Shown here: piece by piece, positions 7,469 to 46,005 of the stretch | Position numbering within the stretch: the first letter of the stretch is position 1 | Layout of the letters: each line of letters starts with the position of its first letter | DNA from: an uncultured Spirochaetota bacterium | GTDB lineage: Bacteria; Spirochaetota; UBA4802; UBA5550 | Assembly: GCA_937872225.1 (NCBI GenBank) | Contig: CALMRZ010000086.1 | Coordinates: 1-56,500 of the forward strand | Direction: 5' to 3' | Length of the DNA: 56,500 nucleotides | The notes under the pieces: generated by a model | The model's database searches: none | Told to the model about the DNA's origin: nothing | The model's input: the letters and a program-made list of their open reading frames with translations, nothing else | Translations under genes and position numbers: made by a program

Positions 7469-9442
7469 GTGCCATCGATGACACTCTTACTTCTCTTTCT
7501 GGCCATCCTTCCGATCCCGGTCATATATTTCTTTTATTACCGGTATTTCCTGGTCAAGCCCAGCTCACTCTATCACCTGGAAAATTTTCTGTACGGCTCC
7601 ATCCTCGCGCTCCTGCTGCTGCTGGCTGGTTCTTTTTCCGTGAACCATCTCGTGTTTCAGAGCGCCATAGCCCGGGGATTCCTGAGCGCCGCCCTGGTCG
7701 AGAAGGCCGGGGCCTTTCTCTTCATCCTGGCCCTGACCTATCGTACGCCGCCGATGCTCATGGTCCTGAACATGACGATTTCCGCCATGCTCCTGGGCCT
7801 CGGCTTTGCAACGGTGGAAAACATTGTCTATGCCCTGGCGGTACGGGAACCGGTGATCGTGGTGCGGCTCTTCAGCTCGGTGCCGCTCCATGTCCTCACC
7901 TGCGGCCTCATGGGATACTGCCTTGCCCTCATGCGCTTCAGCGGGTCCCCCGGCAACCGGCTCCGCTATGCCCTGGGGGCGTTCGCCGTGCCGCTCCTGT
8001 TTCACGGCCTGTATGACACGATGCTCATGAGAGGCGGCGACGGGACCTACTGGATCGCGCCGCTCCTGGTCATGCTCATCATGGGGATGGAATACATCAT
8101 CGCCCGGTCGCAGACGCTTCCCCTTCTGGACGGCCTGAGGAAACACCGCATGTCCATCGAGGAGTGGCGGACCATCCAGCGAGAACCGCAGCACGCCCGG
8201 TGGATCCTCCGCTCCATGGGGTCGAAGAACCGCGAATATGTGCCCTTCTTCAGGTTGAGCATCGGGAAGATGAGGGGGGCCGTCATCGTCGCCATGATCG
8301 CCGCTGCCGCAGCCTGCTTCGTCAACAGGGAGGCGCTCATGGAACTGATGCGCTACCGGCTGGCGGCCGAAGAGACCGTCACGCTCTTCACCCTGCTCCC
8401 CGCCCTGTATTGCCTCAACCTTTTCATCGTGGGCGTGGTGAACCCGAAGTATTTTCAAAACAGCATGATACGGATCCCAATCATCATCGATGTCGATATG
8501 GCGAAAGACGATTCAGTCATCAAGACCATAACCTATCATGTCACGGCCGGGAACTGCTACCTCAAGACCGTGGACCCGATCAGTGTCGGCACGCGGTGCC
8601 TGCTGGTTTTCACCTGCTCGAACTTTTCGTCGCCGCAGGTCCCGTGCGAGGTTATATGGGACAGCCGCGACGACCGGAAGCAGCTTTCCGGCACCCTGGT
8701 GCGTCTCACGGAACGGCCGTGGGGCTACCGCGCGTTTTTAATGAAGTACTACCTGTACCGGGTGACGCGGGGGCTCTTTTTCAACCTGCGACTGCCCGGG
8801 TTTAAAAGCGTCCGGCAGCTCTTTGTCAGGCCCGTGTCTGTGATGCAGAAGGAGTGGCGCTTCGGCGAGGGCCATGTTCTCTTCGAGCAGGGCGAGGAGG
8901 GGAAGGTCTTTTACCTCATCAGGAAGGGGAAAGTGGACATTGTCAAGACCCTCGAAACCGGGGAGAAGGTGCGCATGGTCACCCTGTCGGAAGGGGACAT
9001 TTTCGGCGAGATGGCCATCGTGGGCAACCAGCCCCGGCTGGCGACGGCAGTGTGCCGGACCGAATGCCTCCTGGCCGTTGCCGAGGCGGACAACCTGGAT
9101 GTCCTTATCGAGAACAACCCGGTGTTTGCCCAGCGCCTCATCAAGATTTTCGCCAACAGGCTCCACGCGTCGGAGCAGACCATGCTGAAAAGCATGGCTG
9201 ACGCGGAATCCATCACGAAGAAAAGGGAAGATATGCTAATGGCGGTTTGCAAGCTGCTCTATGTCGCAGCGGGTTTGGATGGTGGCGGCATACAAGAACT
9301 CGACGGGAATGATGCGGCTCTGCTGTCATCGCAGCTCGGTTTGAATAAAGATACAATTGTCACTATCTATAACAGGGTTACCGCTGCCGGTGGCCTGTCC
9401 CGGCTGGATGAGATAATAAGGTCTATCATTGACGAATCGTGA
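7469..9442 (+). CDS. PrsW-family intramembrane protease fused to PilZ-like and cyclic-nucleotide-binding domains
   Basis: A 657-residue inner-membrane protein. Residues 1-215 hold about seven helices with PrsW signatures: LVEKAGAF, GFATVEN (Glu117), PLHVLTCGLMGY (His141) and FHGLYD (His179). PrsW enzymes are glutamic-type membrane proteases, for example in anti-sigma factor cleavage. Residues 220-250 are a soluble linker and 268-325 hold two more helices. Residues 335-425 look like a degenerate PilZ barrel lacking the clear RxxxR motif. Residues 462-570 are a cNMP-binding domain (GDIFGEMAIVGNQPRLATA). Residues 585-657 resemble a Crp-like winged helix (SSQLGLNKDTIVTIYNRV). The start is GTG 7469 or ATG 7478, neither with a convincing ribosome-binding site. 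A membrane protease gated by nucleotide second messengers is an inference. Confidence 0.75.
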   Translation: MPSMTLLLLFLAILPIPVIYFFYYRYFLVKPSSLYHLENFLYGSILALLLLLAGSFSVNHLVFQSAIARGFLSAALVEKAGAFLFILALTYRTPPMLMVLNMTISAMLLGLGFATVENIVYALAVREPVIVVRLFSSVPLHVLTCGLMGYCLALMRFSGSPGNRLRYALGAFAVPLLFHGLYDTMLMRGGDGTYWIAPLLVMLIMGMEYIIARSQTLPLLDGLRKHRMSIEEWRTIQREPQHARWILRSMGSKNREYVPFFRLSIGKMRGAVIVAMIAAAAACFVNREALMELMRYRLAAEETVTLFTLLPALYCLNLFIVGVVNPKYFQNSMIRIPIIIDVDMAKDDSVIKTITYHVTAGNCYLKTVDPISVGTRCLLVFTCSNFSSPQVPCEVIWDSRDDRKQLSGTLVRLTERPWGYRAFLMKYYLYRVTRGLFFNLRLPGFKSVRQLFVRPVSVMQKEWRFGEGHVLFEQGEEGKVFYLIRKGKVDIVKTLETGEKVRMVTLSEGDIFGEMAIVGNQPRLATAVCRTECLLAVAEADNLDVLIENNPVFAQRLIKIFANRLHASEQTMLKSMADAESITKKREDMLMAVCKLLYVAAGLDGGGIQELDGNDAALLSSQLGLNKDTIVTIYNRVTAAGGLSRLDEIIRSIIDES

Positions 9443-25700: not shown

Positions 25701-27827
25701 ATGGCACCCAAGGAACGCCTGAATTTGATCGAGGAAATTTTCGAAGACAAACAGAGGAGCGGCGAGCTCCTAGTGGCCCGTTTCAGGCTGGTCATTCTCC
25801 TTGCCTTCATCCCCCTCATTTTCGCGCTCCGTTTTCTCCTGGGGTATCTCCTTCCCTCCTACTGGCTCCTGAGCATCGGCAAATGGATCATCATGTCCGC
25901 CATTGCCGCGGGCATATACCTGTTTTTGCAGAAGGGCCATTACCGGTCCTGGATCGGCTTCGTGACGCTTTTTCTCGATACCGCCTTCGTGACGACCAGC
26001 ATCATCACCCTTTCCTTTTACACGATGAACCGCACCGGCGTCATGCAGGACCCCCTCGTCATCATCTATTACCTGATCGGCTTCAGCGGCGGCATCAGGT
26101 ACCGCACCCGCTACACGGTCTTCAGCGTCGCCCTGTGCGTGCCGGTCATCATCATGCTCTCATGGTTCGACCGCGCCTATCACGAGGTGCCCGTGGATTA
26201 CATACTGGTGATTGACCGCCTGGCGTTTTTGCTCCTCATTTCGGTCATGGGCCTTGTCTTTTCCAGGATGCTGGGAGACTACATCATGGCCTGGTACCAG
26301 ATGGGAGAGAAGCACGTGAAGGAAATCGCGTCCCTGATGGAGATAGGGCGCAAGATATCCTCCCCTGAAGAGCTGGCAAAGACGCTCGGCAACATAGCAC
26401 AGGAGACGAACAAGCTCCTCCAGGCAGACCGCTGCTTTATGGTCATCAGGAACGGACGGACCGGTTCGATGGAGGTCATCACCGAAACGAAAAGTTTTTC
26501 CTGCACTACCGGCGGGGACATGGAATGCATGATAGGCGGGAAGATCATGGACACGGCCGCGGCCCTTGCGGTGCCTTCGAAAGGCGGTGCCGGTGATACC
26601 GGCATCGCCGCGGCCCTGAAGGGCTCCTCCATCAGGAGCCTGTACGGGCTGCCGGTAACCGTTGACGGCGCCGTCGCGGGGGCACTGGTCATTGCCTGCG
26701 GAACCGGGAGGGTCTTCTCGGAATATGACCGCACCCTTCTCGGGGTCCTGTCCGAGCAGGCGGCCATTTCAATAAAAAACTCGAGGCTGCTGGAGCAGTT
26801 GAAGAGCGAGAGCGTGTACCTTCACGAGGAGCTCGACTATTCCTCCAGCTTCCAGAATATCATCGGCCAGAGCCGGAAGATGAAGGATATCTTCAGCCTG
26901 ATTGAAAAGGCGGCGAAGTCAAACATCCCGGTCATCATCAGGGGGGAAAGCGGCACCGGCAAGGAGCTCGTCGCCGACGCCCTCTATGCACTGGGGCCCC
27001 GGCGGGACAAGCCCTTCATCAAGCTGAACTGTTCGGCCATTCCCTCGGAGCTCCTGGAAAGCGAGCTCTTCGGCCACGAGAAGGGCGCCTTTACCGGGGC
27101 TGACCGCCAGCGGAAGGGGAAGTTCGAACTGGCGGGCGGCGGGACCATCTTCCTTGACGAGATCGGCGACATGAGCCCGAAGCTCCAGACCAAGCTCCTC
27201 CGCGTGCTCCAGGAGGGCGTGTTCGAGCGCATCGGCGGCGAGTCGACCATCAGGGTCGATGTCCGGATCATCACGGCCACGAACCAGAACCTTGAAGAAA
27301 AGATACGGAAGGGCGATTTCCGGGAAGACCTCTTCTACCGGATCAACGGCCTTCCGGTCTACCTGCCGCCTCTCCGGGAACGGCGGGAGGATATCCCCCT
27401 CCTGGTCGATCATTTTATACGGAAGTATGATTACACCGGCGCCAGGAGCATCGAATTCACCGTATCGGCCATGCGTTTTCTCACGTCCCGGGAATGGCGG
27501 GGCAACGTGAGGGAACTGGAGAACCTGGTCCACCGCATGCTCGTGATGACCGACAAGAACAAGATTTCCGAAAAGGACCTGGAGGCGATCGGCGCGATCT
27601 CGGACACGGCGCGGATGATGGATTTTTACGCCACGATGAAGACCTATATCGAGGACGCGGTCCGCAACGGCTGCGATGTCGCCGCTGAGATCGAGCGCAT
27701 CGAACGGGAATTTCTTGCCGAGGCGTACCGGCAGTCAAAGGGCAATGTACGGAAAGCGGCTGAAATCACCGGCCTGCCCAAGTCGACCCTCTTTAACAAG
27801 CTGCAGAAGTACGGGATTACCGACTGA
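25701..27827 (+). CDS. Membrane-anchored sigma-54-dependent transcriptional activator
   Basis: A 708-residue enhancer-binding protein. Residues about 27-198 contain six membrane helices with no known sensor name, and residues 205-360 a GAF domain (ADRCFMVIRNGRTG). The AAA+ domain spans 385-610: Walker A GESGTGKE (415-422), the sigma-54-contacting GAFTGA (462-467), Walker B TIFLDEIGD and the arginine finger region GNVRELENLVHR. The C-terminal Fis-type helix-turn-helix is about residues 670-705 (NVRKAAEITGLPKSTLFNKL). The membrane part and GAF domain probably sense a signal. A near-consensus sigma-54 promoter lies 354 bases downstream, and another at 41.7 kb has the same -12 variant. No partner kinase is adjacent and there is no receiver domain. 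Confidence 0.95.
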   Translation: MAPKERLNLIEEIFEDKQRSGELLVARFRLVILLAFIPLIFALRFLLGYLLPSYWLLSIGKWIIMSAIAAGIYLFLQKGHYRSWIGFVTLFLDTAFVTTSIITLSFYTMNRTGVMQDPLVIIYYLIGFSGGIRYRTRYTVFSVALCVPVIIMLSWFDRAYHEVPVDYILVIDRLAFLLLISVMGLVFSRMLGDYIMAWYQMGEKHVKEIASLMEIGRKISSPEELAKTLGNIAQETNKLLQADRCFMVIRNGRTGSMEVITETKSFSCTTGGDMECMIGGKIMDTAAALAVPSKGGAGDTGIAAALKGSSIRSLYGLPVTVDGAVAGALVIACGTGRVFSEYDRTLLGVLSEQAAISIKNSRLLEQLKSESVYLHEELDYSSSFQNIIGQSRKMKDIFSLIEKAAKSNIPVIIRGESGTGKELVADALYALGPRRDKPFIKLNCSAIPSELLESELFGHEKGAFTGADRQRKGKFELAGGGTIFLDEIGDMSPKLQTKLLRVLQEGVFERIGGESTIRVDVRIITATNQNLEEKIRKGDFREDLFYRINGLPVYLPPLRERREDIPLLVDHFIRKYDYTGARSIEFTVSAMRFLTSREWRGNVRELENLVHRMLVMTDKNKISEKDLEAIGAISDTARMMDFYATMKTYIEDAVRNGCDVAAEIERIEREFLAEAYRQSKGNVRKAAEITGLPKSTLFNKLQKYGITD

Positions 27828-27868
27828 TTATTTTCTCTCACCGTATCTTTTGACCATATCAGGTGTTA

Positions 27869-27908
27869 TCTGTCCGAAAAACGGGACAGACGGCTATGAT
27901 CTGGGACA
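27869..27908. promoter_or_regulatory. Candidate upstream activating sites
   Basis: TCTGTCC (27869-27875) and GGACAGA (27884-27890) form a perfect 7-bp inverted repeat with an 8-base spacer. A third half-site GGGACA lies at 27903-27908, exactly 20 bases from the one at 27883. About 300 bases upstream of the sigma-54 promoter, this is a plausible binding region for the adjacent activator. It lacks a T-run, so it is less likely a terminator. Confidence 0.4.
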
Positions 27909-28002
27909 AAAACATTGAATATAGGATGCATTCAATCAATAGCCAGCATTAGCCCCACGTAATATATCCCCCCACGACCCGCGTTCTCAGGATGAGGTTG
28001 AT

Positions 28003-28049
28003 GCCAACGCAGGTACAGGATGTACCGATTGCGTTGGCCCCGGAGGGGC
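28003..28049. repeat. Double hairpin in the gene-free stretch 27828-28180
   Basis: GCCAACGCA-GGTAC (28003-28016) pairs with GTACC-gat-TGCGTTGGC (28022-28038), and GCCCC-gga-GGGGC (28037-28049) follows. A G-rich run near 28090-28115 resembles the one at 31747-31850. It may be an intergenic repeat family member; no gene is seen in this stretch. Confidence 0.45.
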
Positions 28050-28180
28050 GTGCAGAAAAAGACCTGATGACTATTTTAATGTACTAATCCATGTCCCCTC
28101 GGGGGGCAGGGGGGTCATTAAATTCATTTATTATGCAAAATATCAAATTTATATGAGAGGACAGGCAGGTAGATTTTTAT

Positions 28181-28196
28181 TGGCACGCTTCATGCA
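28181..28196 (+). promoter_or_regulatory. Sigma-54 promoter of the START-protein gene
   Basis: TGGCACG-N4-ATGCA with the -24 GG (28182-28183) and -12 GC (28194-28195) exactly 10 bases apart; it differs from TGGCACG-N4-TTGCA at one position. Transcription would begin near 28207 and give a leader of about 54 bases. The sigma-54 activator gene is immediately upstream. Confidence 0.75.
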
Positions 28197-28260
28197 TTAA
28201 TAAAAGACTAGCTGGACGGTTTGTAAGAAAAATATAATACTATGGAGGTGTTTGATCATT

Positions 28261-29259
28261 ATGAAGAGGCTATTAATTATTCTCACGGCAATTGTATCCT
28301 TAACCATCATCTATGATGCCTATGCCGGTGCCGACGGATCATGGTCACTGGTAAAGAACAGCGGCGGGATAAAGGTCTATGAGCGGTCGGTCCCGGGCAC
28401 GGACCTGATGGAGTACATGGCGGTCACCGCCATTGATGAAAAGATGGAGGTCCTCGGCGAAGTGCTCCGTGACGTCCCTGCCTACCGTAACTGGATCGCC
28501 GACTGCTACGGAGCGCAGGTGGAAAAGCAGTATGACCGGAACACCATGGCCATCTACCTGGTGCTGAAGCCGCCCATCATCCAGGAGCGGGACGTGGCGC
28601 TGAAGGATAAAACCGTGTATGACTGGGACAAGGCCCGGGCGGCCATTTCCTTCGGGGCGACAGAAGAGATCAAAATACCTTTGGAAAAGAACAGGGTGCG
28701 GGTCACCATGATGAACGGCGTCTTCGACATGGAATTCCTCGGGCGCAACAGGACCAAGTTCATATACAGGCTCCTGGTGGATCCGGCGGGGGACATCCCG
28801 AAACGGGTGGCCTATGCCGTCATGAAGAGTTATCCCTACGAGACGCTGAAAAAGCTCAGGACCATGGTGCCGAACAGGAAATACAGTGACGCGGCGCGGG
28901 GCTCGGAAGAGGAGCGGGCCATCGATACCAGGACGAAGAACGAGGCCTACATACGGAACCTCCTGTACAACAGGCTGGCAAAGTTCGTCAGGGACCGGGC
29001 GGCCCTGCAGTCTATAATACAGAAAGACCGGAATTCAATAAAGAATATAGTCCAGTCAGGCGCCACCTATGACAGCGTTGAAAAGGCCTCGATGCAGTTT
29101 TATTTCGCATACCTGGATTCGATTGTTCCCGACAAGGAGGCTGCCCGGAAGCTGAAGGGCAACAGGAAGATGATAGGGGAAATAATCGATATGATCGTGA
29201 CCGACTGCGGCGCTTCGGATGTGTCGGTGGAGAGCATCATTGCAAAATACAGGGATTAG
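28261..29259 (+). CDS. Exported START-domain lipid-binding-like protein
   Basis: A 332-residue protein with a signal peptide (to about DAYAGA). Residues 25-215 resemble the START/SRPBCC fold that holds a lipid in a hydrophobic cavity: GGIKVYERSVPGTDLMEYMAV at the start, VPAYRNWIADCYGAQ, and LVDPAGDIPKRVAYAVMKSYP at the closing helix. Residues 220-332 are a helical tail of unknown fold. ATG 28261 follows GGAGGTG by ten bases; the TTG at 28252 is too close. It would carry lipid in the periplasm. It is expressed from the sigma-54 promoter and its stop is followed at once by a 42-bp palindrome. Confidence 0.8.
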   Translation: MKRLLIILTAIVSLTIIYDAYAGADGSWSLVKNSGGIKVYERSVPGTDLMEYMAVTAIDEKMEVLGEVLRDVPAYRNWIADCYGAQVEKQYDRNTMAIYLVLKPPIIQERDVALKDKTVYDWDKARAAISFGATEEIKIPLEKNRVRVTMMNGVFDMEFLGRNRTKFIYRLLVDPAGDIPKRVAYAVMKSYPYETLKKLRTMVPNRKYSDAARGSEEERAIDTRTKNEAYIRNLLYNRLAKFVRDRAALQSIIQKDRNSIKNIVQSGATYDSVEKASMQFYFAYLDSIVPDKEAARKLKGNRKMIGEIIDMIVTDCGASDVSVESIIAKYRD

Positions 29260-41592: not shown

Positions 41593-41709
41593 GAAAAATA
41601 ATCTGAAAATATCCTGTTTTGACAACAATGCCTTTTCACCTTGATCCGTGGGGATTTTTAAAGGTACAGAAAAACTTTAGAATTGCATTGTTTTAAACGA
41701 CAATATAGA

Positions 41710-41725
41710 TGGCACGTCTGATGCT
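41710..41725 (+). promoter_or_regulatory. Sigma-54-type promoter of the phosphoesterase/ATPase/TPR operon
   Basis: TGGCACG-N4-ATGCT with GG (41711-41712) and GC (41723-41724) ten bases apart, then a T-rich tract. It matches the site at 28181 in its first seven bases and in the ATGC variant of the -12. Transcription near 41736 would give a 20-base leader. Confidence 0.65.
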
Positions 41726-41755
41726 TATTTTTCCACCATTTGATGGTATGTTGGT

Positions 41756-42883
41756 ATGGATAGAGAAATCAAGATTTTATTCATGTCGGATATTCACCTG
41801 GGGATCAGGCCCAATGATACCCATATCCCCGATTACGCCAGGATCAACACCTTCAAGCGCATTGCCGCCATCGCCCGGGGACACGATCTTTTCCTCATCG
41901 GGGGTGACCTCATAGACAACGCTTCCGTCGGCAGCGACATCATCGATATAATCAAGACGGAATTCCGCGCCCTACGGAACGCCGGCACTGAAATCGCGTA
42001 TACGCCGGGAAAAGGCGAGCTTACCGGCAGGAACGTCATTGCCCCCGCGGTTCTTGACCTCAACGCGTCATGCCTTTTTTCGAGCAGCATGACCGCGACG
42101 CCTTACCTGTACATGAAGAACGGCCAGAAGGTCTATGTCTACGGCCTGTCGGGCAGTCTGGGATACGATCTGTCGAAGGTGAAAAAAATATCCGAAGAGG
42201 GCTTTCACATCGGGCTGTTTCACGCTGATTTCGATTTTGACAACGAGAAAAACGATTACCTGGTGTACCGTCTCCAGAAGAACGACATCAAGACCCTGGG
42301 GTTGGACTTTTACGCCTTCGGCTATTGCCACAGCTTCAAGATGTTCAAAATCATGGACCGCATCATCGGGGTGTGCCCCGGGAGCCCCGAGGCAACGACC
42401 TTTGATGAAACGGGGGACCGCTATATCATCTCCATTGTCATCAAGGAGAACAGGCTGTACCAGATCAAGCGGCTCACCGTCAATTCCATGAAGCTGTGCC
42501 GGAACCAGGTGGATTGCTCCAGCCTGGTGACCATGGGCCCCATCAAGGAGCTGCTGGAGAACAACAGGTCAAAGAAGGCCATCCAGCAGGTCGTCCTGAC
42601 GGGGGAGCGTGACTTTGTCCTTCGCCAGTATGAAATCCAGAATTACAGGAACGAGTTCTTCAGGCTGGACTTCGTCGACCGGAGCGTGCCGACGATCGGT
42701 TCCCTCATAGAGGAATTCCAGTACGAGAATTCGCTGCGCGGGGAATTCTATAAGATCATAAAAGAACAGATTGAACAGGGAGGCCTGCCCCATGATGTTG
42801 ACAAGGCCGATTTCGCGATGTCCCTGAATAAAATCACCCGTGAGGGGTTTACGAACCTGGAGGACTGGCTGTGCAGTATATAA
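41756..42883 (+). CDS. Mre11/SbcD/YhaO-like metallophosphoesterase with degenerate active site
   Basis: A 375-residue protein with the calcineurin-like fold. Motif I SDIHLG (Asp12, His14) and motif II IGGDLID (Asp51) are intact. Motif III, normally GNH(D/E), reads PGKGE (84-88), so the asparagine and histidine are missing. Motif IV has H156 (GLFHADF) and motif V reads FGYCHS (His192) instead of GHxH, with the first histidine tyrosine. At least one metal site is probably lost. The C-terminal 170 residues have no motif seen. Its stop overlaps the ATPase start by 13 bases, the arrangement of sbcD-sbcC and yhaO-yhaN pairs. The start has only a weak ribosome-binding site. Confidence 0.85.
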   Translation: MDREIKILFMSDIHLGIRPNDTHIPDYARINTFKRIAAIARGHDLFLIGGDLIDNASVGSDIIDIIKTEFRALRNAGTEIAYTPGKGELTGRNVIAPAVLDLNASCLFSSSMTATPYLYMKNGQKVYVYGLSGSLGYDLSKVKKISEEGFHIGLFHADFDFDNEKNDYLVYRLQKNDIKTLGLDFYAFGYCHSFKMFKIMDRIIGVCPGSPEATTFDETGDRYIISIVIKENRLYQIKRLTVNSMKLCRNQVDCSSLVTMGPIKELLENNRSKKAIQQVVLTGERDFVLRQYEIQNYRNEFFRLDFVDRSVPTIGSLIEEFQYENSLRGEFYKIIKEQIEQGGLPHDVDKADFAMSLNKITREGFTNLEDWLCSI

Positions 42884-45018
42884 AGTGCATGGTGTACAGG
42901 CACGGGCTCTTCGACAACCGTGTCATTGATTTCAGCGACCGGCTCACCATCGTGTACGGCAAGAACGGGTCGGGCAAGAGCCTCCTGGCGCGGAGCATGG
43001 TCGATGTCCTGTGGGGCAAATTCTCCGATCGGAAGCTCCTGGGCGACGACGTGTGGAACTCCCTGTATCTGGACCTCTTCTTTTCCCTGTCCGACAGCGG
43101 TTATTACCGCATCTGCAACACCAGTGATAAGAATTACCGTATACAGTACATCCAGAACAACACGGAGAAGATCATCTATTCCGAGTCAAAGTCGGAAGGG
43201 CAGGACAGCAGGGTCCAGGACCACTTTAACAACGATTTCGAAAGCAGGATGCTCCGGGAATTCCTGGGGCGGATCGATTGCGCTTCCTTCATCAACTCTT
43301 CCTTCATTCCGGCGTCCTCCGATATCGCCAGGGAATCTTTCATGGACCTTCCGGTGCTCAAGCGGATCATACTCGATGAGAACACCGGTTTTTATAACCA
43401 GTACCTGATCATGCGGAAGGTTTTCGACACGGGCATGGCGGATGACGGCGGTCTGCCCCCGGAAGTCTTGCGGTTCGAGGATAAGAAGCGGGACCTTGAA
43501 AAGAAGATCCAGATAATGGACATCAGGGATTCCCGGCACGACAAACTCAGGAGGGAAAAAAACACGATCCAGTGCGAAGTTGACGAATTAAACAGTTCCC
43601 TTAATTCGCTTAACAGCCAGAAGCTGATCCTGAGCAAGATAATAGAGAACCTGCACAAGGTGGAAGAGCTGAAACAGGAGTTCGAGGGAATCAAGGACGA
43701 GATACAGGACGAGCAGCAGAAGATCAAGTCAATGGCCGACATGAAGACCGAGCTGGACACCATGTTTCCCCAGTTCAGCGAGCTCGACATCACCGACAGC
43801 ACCAACCTTGACCGCCTCCAGGAGGTTTTCAACGATATCAGGAACCTCAACGAAAGGATCGACGATTTTTATTTCAGGAGGGAGCTGAAGGCCAGGAGGC
43901 TGAAAAGGGCGGCCATCGCGGTTTCCGCCAGTGCCCTTGCCGCGCTTGCGGCCGTCCTGATTCGGAACGGGTTCAACGTGTTCAAGGACCTGTACCTGCT
44001 GATCGGCATACTGGGCCTTGCCTGCATCGCCTATGCCGCCATCGGCGCCGGCATGCTGGTGATCAGGCGTGAAAAAGACCTTCAGAAGCTGGAAGAGGAA
44101 AAGAAGCGGTTCAAAGAGCGGATCATGGCCCTGATGGAAAAGAGCAAGGTGGTGTTGGAAGACTACAAGCTGACCGAGATCTACGAGCTCCTCCTCCAGT
44201 ATTTCGAGGACTACGTCAATTACACCGAGCGGAAGAAGGACCTGGCCATGATCAAGAGCTCCCTGAAAGAAGAAGAATACATGGTGCGGATACAGAAAAA
44301 GCTGGATGAATTGAAGAAGGAAGAGGAGATCATAAAAGACGAAATCCACACCAGCATCGACACCCTAAACATCGTGGACGACATAGAAAACGAAACGAGC
44401 AAGATCGAGGACCTGATCAGGAATATCGGCACCGAAGTGGGGCTCATAAAAGAGAAGATCGAGACCAAGGAGCGCATCCTGCAGCAGATCGACAACGAGT
44501 TTCTCCAGGCGTCCGGCAACAGCGGCGCCATGAACGCCCTCATCGAGGAGAGGAACAACGTTGACCGGGTACTGAAAAAATGGAAGGTCAACCGGAATTC
44601 GATGGATTTCATCACCCGCATGATGACCCGCGCCGTCGAGCGCAGCGAGGAAAAGCAGCTGCGGAAGCTCCTGGACGGCACCCTGGAGAAGTTCAACCAC
44701 CTCACGGGGAACCAGTACGTCACCAGGATCGACGACGCCGCGCTGCTGAAGATGATAACGGAAAACAGGCTGTCCGATGAGATGACGCCCCCCATCCTCC
44801 ACGCGCTGCTCCTCTCGCTTAAATTCACTTTGTCCGATTTCATCATCAACGGGAGTACCACGATCCCATTATTGATTGACGAACCGTTCCAGTTTATGGA
44901 TGATGAACGCTGTAACCGGTTCCGGGACCTGGTGTCGTATGTTTCCAACAAGCGGCAGGTGATAATCTTCACGCACCAGAGCGACAAGCGGAACTGGGGC
45001 AATTTCGTAGAGCTTTAA
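42871..45018 (+). CDS. Rad50/SbcC/YhaN-like ATPase with central membrane helices
   Basis: A 715-residue ABC-type ATPase. Walker A GKNGSGKS (30-37) opens the N-terminal half-domain. Residues 200-340 and 400-560 are coiled coils, broken by two membrane helices (about 349-366 and 375-399). The C-terminal half has the signature-like region LSDEMTPPILHALLLSLKFT, Walker B IPLLIDEP (666-673) and the switch histidine in IIFTHQSD. Rad50 proteins have a zinc hook between coils; here membrane helices take that place, as in Bacillus YhaN. It should form a membrane-tethered complex with the overlapping phosphoesterase. Substrate is presumably DNA ends but this is inferred. Confidence 0.88.
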   Translation: MQYIKCMVYRHGLFDNRVIDFSDRLTIVYGKNGSGKSLLARSMVDVLWGKFSDRKLLGDDVWNSLYLDLFFSLSDSGYYRICNTSDKNYRIQYIQNNTEKIIYSESKSEGQDSRVQDHFNNDFESRMLREFLGRIDCASFINSSFIPASSDIARESFMDLPVLKRIILDENTGFYNQYLIMRKVFDTGMADDGGLPPEVLRFEDKKRDLEKKIQIMDIRDSRHDKLRREKNTIQCEVDELNSSLNSLNSQKLILSKIIENLHKVEELKQEFEGIKDEIQDEQQKIKSMADMKTELDTMFPQFSELDITDSTNLDRLQEVFNDIRNLNERIDDFYFRRELKARRLKRAAIAVSASALAALAAVLIRNGFNVFKDLYLLIGILGLACIAYAAIGAGMLVIRREKDLQKLEEEKKRFKERIMALMEKSKVVLEDYKLTEIYELLLQYFEDYVNYTERKKDLAMIKSSLKEEEYMVRIQKKLDELKKEEEIIKDEIHTSIDTLNIVDDIENETSKIEDLIRNIGTEVGLIKEKIETKERILQQIDNEFLQASGNSGAMNALIEERNNVDRVLKKWKVNRNSMDFITRMMTRAVERSEEKQLRKLLDGTLEKFNHLTGNQYVTRIDDAALLKMITENRLSDEMTPPILHALLLSLKFTLSDFIINGSTTIPLLIDEPFQFMDDERCNRFRDLVSYVSNKRQVIIFTHQSDKRNWGNFVEL

Positions 45019-45024
45019 AAGGCG

Positions 45025-46005
45025 ATGGACAAGAACGGGCAACTGACATTTTCCGATGATCCGATCCTGAACGGCATCAACGAGGTGTACCAGCTCATCG
45101 AGAAGGGCGAGTTCGCGGCCGCGGTCGCCCGGATAGACGAGCTGATGGACATCGATGCCGACTATCCCGGCCTCATAGAATCGTACCGGGTGGCTAAATT
45201 CTGGAACAACCGGGAGAAGGAAATGAAGACCCTCGACGAGGGCAAGGACACCGCCGAGTACCTCATGAAACAGTGGGAGGTCTTCAACGAGTACGCCGAG
45301 GGCAAGAACATGGTCTCCTCGTCGGCATTCAAATACGCGATGCGGTATATCTTCATCAAGGCTGCGGACAACTACAAGTTCGCCTTCCGGGAGCAGCAGG
45401 ACACGTCGAACAATTTCCAGTTTCTCCTGAACCTGGGTGACTGCTTTCTGCGGCTCGAGGAGTACAAGCTGGCGATCGACACCCTCGAGTACGCCCGGGG
45501 CTCCTACAAGAGCAGCGCCCGACTCATGGCGATCCTCGGTGAGGCCTACTTCCATTCCGGCGACGTGTCGAAGAGCCTCCTTTCATTCCGCGAGGCCTTT
45601 TTCATCGACCCGGCCGAGATCGACCTGAGTCTGCTGAAGGCGAAGCCGGTCCAGGAACTGGTGGAGATCGTGAAAAAGGAGCGGGCCGATTTCAAGGACA
45701 TTGCCGAGTGGATCCCCATCTACGGTTACATCCATGATATTTTTTACGTGAAGCGCAACCTGAGCGCGCACCAGGTCGAAGGGATCCAGAAGGATATCTA
45801 CAACCTGGAGCTGACCTACCAGAAGATGAACAAGAGCCAGGTGGAGGCCTCAAACATCATGCCCCGCCTTATCAATAAATACCTCTGGCTCCTTGACTAC
45901 TATAGCCTCCAGAGCTATAATTTTGAAAACATGACCCAGATCCGGGACCGCCTGCTGAACATCAACCGGGAGCTCTTCCAGGAATATTTCACCAGGAAGA
46001 AGTAG
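45025..46005 (+). CDS. TPR-like helical protein, third gene of the module
   Basis: A 326-residue cytoplasmic protein starting 6 bases after the ATPase. Residues about 8-60 and 125-225 are TPR-like helical pairs (VYQLIEKGEFAAAVARIDEL; NLGDCFLRLEEYKLAIDTLE; ILGEAYFHSGDVSKSLLSFREAF). The C-terminal 90 residues are a long helical region (NLELTYQKMNKSQVEASN). It has no signal peptide or catalytic motif. The close packing suggests a subunit or adaptor of the phosphoesterase/ATPase complex. I know of no such third gene in sbcDC or yhaON operons. Confidence 0.75.
   Translation: MDKNGQLTFSDDPILNGINEVYQLIEKGEFAAAVARIDELMDIDADYPGLIESYRVAKFWNNREKEMKTLDEGKDTAEYLMKQWEVFNEYAEGKNMVSSSAFKYAMRYIFIKAADNYKFAFREQQDTSNNFQFLLNLGDCFLRLEEYKLAIDTLEYARGSYKSSARLMAILGEAYFHSGDVSKSLLSFREAFFIDPAEIDLSLLKAKPVQELVEIVKKERADFKDIAEWIPIYGYIHDIFYVKRNLSAHQVEGIQKDIYNLELTYQKMNKSQVEASNIMPRLINKYLWLLDYYSLQSYNFENMTQIRDRLLNINRELFQEYFTRKK

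Follow-up and report, generated by a model that had tools for sequence, protein, structure and literature searches.

The three adjacent genes at positions 41756–46005 of the window (the whole stretch analyzed here, 56,500 nucleotides, from a Spirochaetota MAG of 4.69 Mb on 95 contigs) constitute a real and old module, which encodes a metallophosphoesterase homologue (PE), an SMC-like ATPase, and a TPR protein. On sequence grounds, the PE–ATPase pair is of the YhaO/YhaN (SbcEF) line, and we assign a probability of roughly 0.58 to the reading that the module is a membrane-tethered, non-nucleolytic Mre11–Rad50-type scaffold with a TPR adaptor. What would be new here is a third subunit in the YhaO/YhaN line, together with the retirement of its chemistry; a literature search that fell short of many subscription papers returned no description of the module or of a pseudo-enzyme YhaON. 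Mre11–Rad50 complexes are usually studied as nucleases; here, the enzymatic parts appear to have decayed stepwise with the complex still under purifying selection, an order-wide natural experiment that makes a non-catalytic (architectural, membrane) role directly testable. The module also points to an uncharacterized TPR protein, near-universal in spirochaetes, that gene order connects with a long form of GreA specific to spirochaetes. Its features are as follows.

41756–42883 (+): YhaO/Mre11-type metallophosphoesterase homologue (PE), 375 aa (Pfam Metallophos, profile versus PDB, motif counts)
42871–45018 (+): YhaN/Rad50-type SMC-like ATPase homologue, 715 aa, GTG start (Pfam AAA_23, profile versus PDB, AF2)
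43909–44064 (+): predicted TM hairpin at the apex of the ATPase coiled coil, residues about 347–398 (hydropathy)
45025–46005 (+): TPR protein, putative adaptor, 326 aa, about 15 helices (Pfam TPR_16, AF2)

Identity and conservation of the three-gene module

An earlier note on this DNA had described three open reading frames with a 13-base overlap and a 6-base gap, and the coordinates agree exactly, with the PE and ATPase genes overlapping at 42871–42883 and the ATPase and TPR genes separated by 45019–45024. Pfam recognizes Metallophos in the PE (E-value 4.2e-5), AAA_23 in the ATPase (6.4e-8), and TPR_16 in the TPR protein (2.1e-8). When profiles built from relatives were compared with the PDB, the nearest structures were those of Mre11 for the PE (3auz/4tug, 2.6e-11) and of Rad50 for the ATPase (3qkt, 2.1e-17); the PE scores below the NCBIfam cut-off for the SbcD family (TIGR00619, 15.9 bits versus 77.65). 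The AF2 model of the ATPase (pLDDT 80) has Rad50, SMC, and Lamassu LmuB among its best Foldseek folds, and that of the TPR protein (pLDDT 90) matches only generic TPR superhelices.

Among 46 genomes of the window's Spirochaetota order (G000–G045), the PE, ATPase, and TPR genes are adjacent and in unchanged order in 41, and contig ends interrupt the module in two (G044 and G045); the only true exceptions, G002, G011, and G036, lack all three genes. This neighborhood check upholds the proposal that the TPR gene is a co-inherited third member. The PE and ATPase genes overlap by 4 to 22 bases in nearly all of these loci and the ATPase–TPR spacing is mostly 1 to 14 bases, short distances suggesting translational coupling. 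Of the three subunits, the TPR protein is best conserved, at 44–90% identity; the ATPase is the most divergent, with identity falling to about 20%. Flanking genes vary between families: the module genes recur in 25 to 26 of 28 extended loci, the next commonest neighbor, valS downstream, in 11, and an upstream PASTA/RPE neighbor in 8. A fixed fourth operon gene was considered and rejected, the downstream position being held by valS in those 11 loci, by a GlmU-like gene in 6, and by others elsewhere.

Degradation of the phosphoesterase and the ATPase

The motif III Asn and His are essential in Mre11 nucleases, and we take the residue matches to Pyrococcus furiosus Mre11 from the profile alignment and established Mre11 biochemistry. 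The degeneracy reported for the PE in the window is confirmed: GNHD reads GKGE (motif III, residues 85–88, nt 42008–42019) and GHxH reads GYCH, and the site-1 metal ligands D12, H14, D51, and H192 are retained, as is H156. Over the 41 PE proteins of the order, which are joined by a node of weak support (0.42), none retains a counterpart of Mre11 Asn84, only two retain that of His85 (lost in 39), and 21 have lost that of His206; site-1 ligand equivalents are kept at D8 in 41, H10 in 38, D49 in 38, and H208 in 40. None of the 41 harbors the full eight-residue set or the intact GNHD plus GHxH that marks YhaO of YhaO/YhaN, and three f3 members have lost further PE metal ligands and retain the operon. 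Because the site-1 ligands are kept in about 38 of the 41, the PE may still have an activity that needs a single metal, or may bind a ligand.

The ATPase in the window conserves a Walker A (GKNGSGKS) and a Walker B (LLIDEP) motif and has lost the Q-loop and the ABC signature, both of which are found in 0 of 40 ATPases of the order. Walker A is recognizable in 33 of the 40; in seven f1 genomes (L106–L112) it is gone, along with Walker B in most, and the TM hairpin and operon are kept. Since the Walker A/B motifs survive in 33 of the 40 ATPases, ATP binding may still be of importance. The ATPase contains no CxxC zinc hook. Hydropathy places a mid-coil TM hairpin in 40 of 40 ATPase homologues of the order, as well as in the two-gene spirochaete pairs described below and in Listeria and Monoglobus YhaN; the feature is thus shared with both the Firmicute and the two-gene spirochaete pairs, which supports the YhaO/YhaN-like identity and the membrane tethering that had been suggested from the window alone.

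Nei–Gojobori dN/dS values, for which sites are partly saturated in more distant pairs, are 0.11 for the PE, 0.11 for the ATPase, and 0.06 for the TPR protein between the window and its nearest relative, G004. In the Walker-less pair L106/L112 (dS about 0.2), the corresponding values are 0.11 for the PE, 0.17 for the ATPase, and 0.01 for the TPR protein. Values of 0.1 to 0.2 for the PE–ATPase pair mean that the degraded proteins are maintained, and the PE and ATPase of this order would therefore appear to be maintained pseudo-enzymes rather than dying genes.

Relation to known systems

Two-gene spirochaete PE–ATPase pairs without an adjacent TPR gene are found in families f18 (L076) and f27 (L169 and L170), and YhaO–YhaN pairs are also found in a Listeria record and on a Monoglobus plasmid. 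The Listeria record (NZ_CP030101.1, L198; 2.9 Mb) is filed as a plasmid in PLSDB and appears chromosomal. GNHD and GHxH are intact in the f18 and f27 pairs and in Listeria and Monoglobus YhaO, and the f18 and f27 pairs also retain the Q-loop and an ABC signature, which reads LSCGAEEQ. Where LSxG would be expected, Listeria YhaN reads LSQATKEQ, and therefore some members of the family have already departed from a strict ABC signature.

The module shares with YhaO/YhaN (SbcE/SbcF) of Bacillus and Listeria a PE-first gene order, close packing, Mre11/Rad50 kinship, and an ATPase of 700 to 900 aa whose coiled coil carries a TM hairpin. It differs in that Firmicute YhaO retains GNHD and GHxH, which the PE of this order has lost, and in that the Firmicute third gene is YhaM-like (HD/OB fold), whereas that of the module encodes a TPR protein. 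The earlier description of known operons as having two core genes is incomplete in this respect, as Bacillus has a yhaONM cluster that is LexA/SOS-linked (PMC3896406) and the Listeria record has a similar third ORF; the role of YhaO/YhaN in double-strand break repair and its damage induction come from the Bacillus literature only (PMC3896406). SbcCD and Mre11–Rad50 have the same fold and two-subunit layout but carry a zinc hook at the coiled-coil apex, where the module has a TM hairpin, and the module lacks their motif III catalytic residues, Q-loop, and signature and has a shorter ATPase. Finally, Lamassu LmuABC (ABC-3C) resembles the module in that its ATPase is of the Rad50/SMC type and its ATP cycle is altered; Lamassu also has an LmuA effector and LmuC, both of which the vertically inherited module lacks, having a PE and a TPR protein instead. 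PADLOC returned no match to LmuA or LmuC in the PE or the TPR protein.

The TPR protein and a long GreA

Full-length TPR orthologues are nearly phylum-wide, Borrelia-like 1-Mb genomes included; TPR matches at E ≤ 1e-3 occur in 282 of 296 genomes, most of them far stronger than this threshold and some generic TPR matches only. At the loci sampled from other Spirochaetota families (L065–L075, L153–L172), the TPR gene lies directly upstream of, and on the same strand as, a gene for an ~900-aa spirochaetal GreA in 27 of 28 (long GreA, NF011309/PRK14720, was called by direct scanning of five genes and by clustering for the rest). The TPR protein of these pairs is orthologous to that of the module, with a full-length match, but greA adjoins the TPR gene there, whereas in the window's order the TPR gene stands behind the PE–ATPase pair and long greA is unlinked, on another contig (G000:C23). 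Families without the TPR gene still have long GreA, and thus the TPR–GreA pair is not obligate. Gene order in these other families would suggest a link of the TPR protein to transcription via GreA. No paper on the TPR–greA pair or on the N-terminal region of long GreA turned up in the literature search, which did not extend to many subscription papers. One of the long-GreA homologues counted among the 27 (L074:6999–9263, 755 aa) matches over the N-terminal 700 residues and has lost the C-terminal GreA domains.

We also considered a strict link between the TPR protein and flagella. The TPR gene is absent in 12 of 12 genomes of the flagellin-less family f49 (within G224–G280), which we take, as a guess, to be Sphaerochaetaceae, but it is kept in the flagellin-less family f45 (G171, G237, and G265), and several flagellated lineages are without it; such a link was thus rejected.

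Proposed mechanism and alternative explanations

In the mechanism we favor, the three genes would form one operon, and their products would assemble into a membrane-tethered complex of YhaO/YhaN descent. The PE has lost the residues for two-metal nuclease catalysis, and the ATPase no longer has a Q-loop or an ABC signature or, in some genera, Walker motifs. Because these elements are lost, the complex should neither cut DNA nor run a normal Rad50 ATP cycle. We infer a structural role instead: the ATPase heads and the PE would make up the base of the scaffold, the coiled coils would end in the TM hairpin, which would hold the assembly in the cell membrane, and the adaptor would be the TPR protein, either taken over from, or also serving, the transcription-elongation context upstream of the ~900-aa GreA. 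A more specific version, in which the retired complex is a scaffold that tethers this GreA-associated TPR factor to the membrane and with it either the nucleoid or RNA polymerase engaged in elongation, is a doubtful extension that we offer tentatively.

The earlier note raised DNA-end processing and defence as possible functions, and neither fares well. An active but divergent end-processing complex, with SbcEF/YhaON function, altered chemistry, and a regulatory TPR protein, would be in keeping with the homology of the PE to Mre11 and of the ATPase to Rad50 and with the four conserved Mn-site ligands; furthermore, canonical SbcD scores above cut-off in no more than 10 of the order's 46 genomes, G000 not among them, so that without such a complex a nuclease for repair might be lacking. 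We nonetheless judge it unlikely: all or almost all homologues have unrelated residues at the motif III Asn/His positions, not one of the 40 ATPases keeps the Q-loop or the signature, and the operon persists where three f3 members have lost more PE ligands and seven f1 members Walker A. A Lamassu/ABC-3C-related complex directed against phages or plasmids, in which the TPR protein would be sensor or effector, draws on a PADLOC match of the ATPase to LmuB (1.7e-14), on the Foldseek LmuB matches, and on the view that LmuB is itself defective in ATP hydrolysis (PMC10586767). It is highly improbable, and was rejected, given single-copy, vertical inheritance across the order in fixed synteny and at low dN/dS, the lack of LmuA and LmuC, a phosphoesterase that is no part of Lamassu, a TPR gene that is near phylum-wide, and searches in which the ATPase had no homologue in phages and the TPR protein none on plasmids.

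The arrangement might also be inherited gene order only, a TPR gene with its own function having landed behind a decaying pair, and the occurrence of the TPR gene without an adjacent pair in most families and of the pair without the TPR gene in f27 fits this. Such a coincidence seems improbable, however, since the tight spacing is kept across seven families in which the flanks have changed, absence in three genomes is all-or-none, and all three genes are under purifying selection.

Promoter region and other features of the window

Two elements lie immediately upstream of the PE gene.

41676–41704 (+): promoter-like element TTTAG-N17-CGACAAT (five-species alignment)
41710–41725 (+): sigma-54-like string TGGCACGTCTGATGCT, not conserved, probably not functional

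The earlier note proposed a sigma-54 promoter for the module, and the string TGGCACGTCTGATGCT, its GG-N10-GC spacing, and its position 30 bases before the PE ATG are as described; its conservation does not back a role as a promoter. The genome has rpoN (PF04552, 1.5e-56), and the window holds two exact matches (41710 and 28181) where base composition predicts about 0.03, but sites with up to two mismatches number 12 versus 14 expected by shuffling. In G004, whose TPR protein is 90% identical, the string reads TAGCACG, which breaks the GG, and in a five-species alignment no site lies upstream of the module in the congeners G001, G003, and G005; sigma-54 control of the module was therefore rejected. 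What does not vary among the five species is a block at 41696–41712, AACGACAAT..AGAT.G, with TWWAG ahead of it at 17-base spacing. The arrangement TAAAG-N17-CGAYAA matches at 11 of 11 positions upstream of the PE gene in seven relatives and is found again ahead of the operon in further f1 genera, a recurrence that made sigma-28 (flagellar) control attractive; a genome scan, however, gave 9 sites versus 6 for the reversed control, no clear enrichment. By its sequence, the conserved element resembles both a FliA-type (sigma-28) promoter and a weak sigma-70 one.

The second exact site, a perfect TTGGCACG-N4-ATGCAT at 28181–28196, lies upstream of a START-like gene (28261–29259) and follows a gene for a GAF-AAA-HTH sigma-54 activator within 25701–28260 (+); a sigma-54 circuit is credible here from the sequence context and more convincing than at 41710. 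Finally, the gene at 7469–9442 (+) encodes a PrsW-type intramembrane protease fused to a C-terminal cyclic-nucleotide-binding domain.
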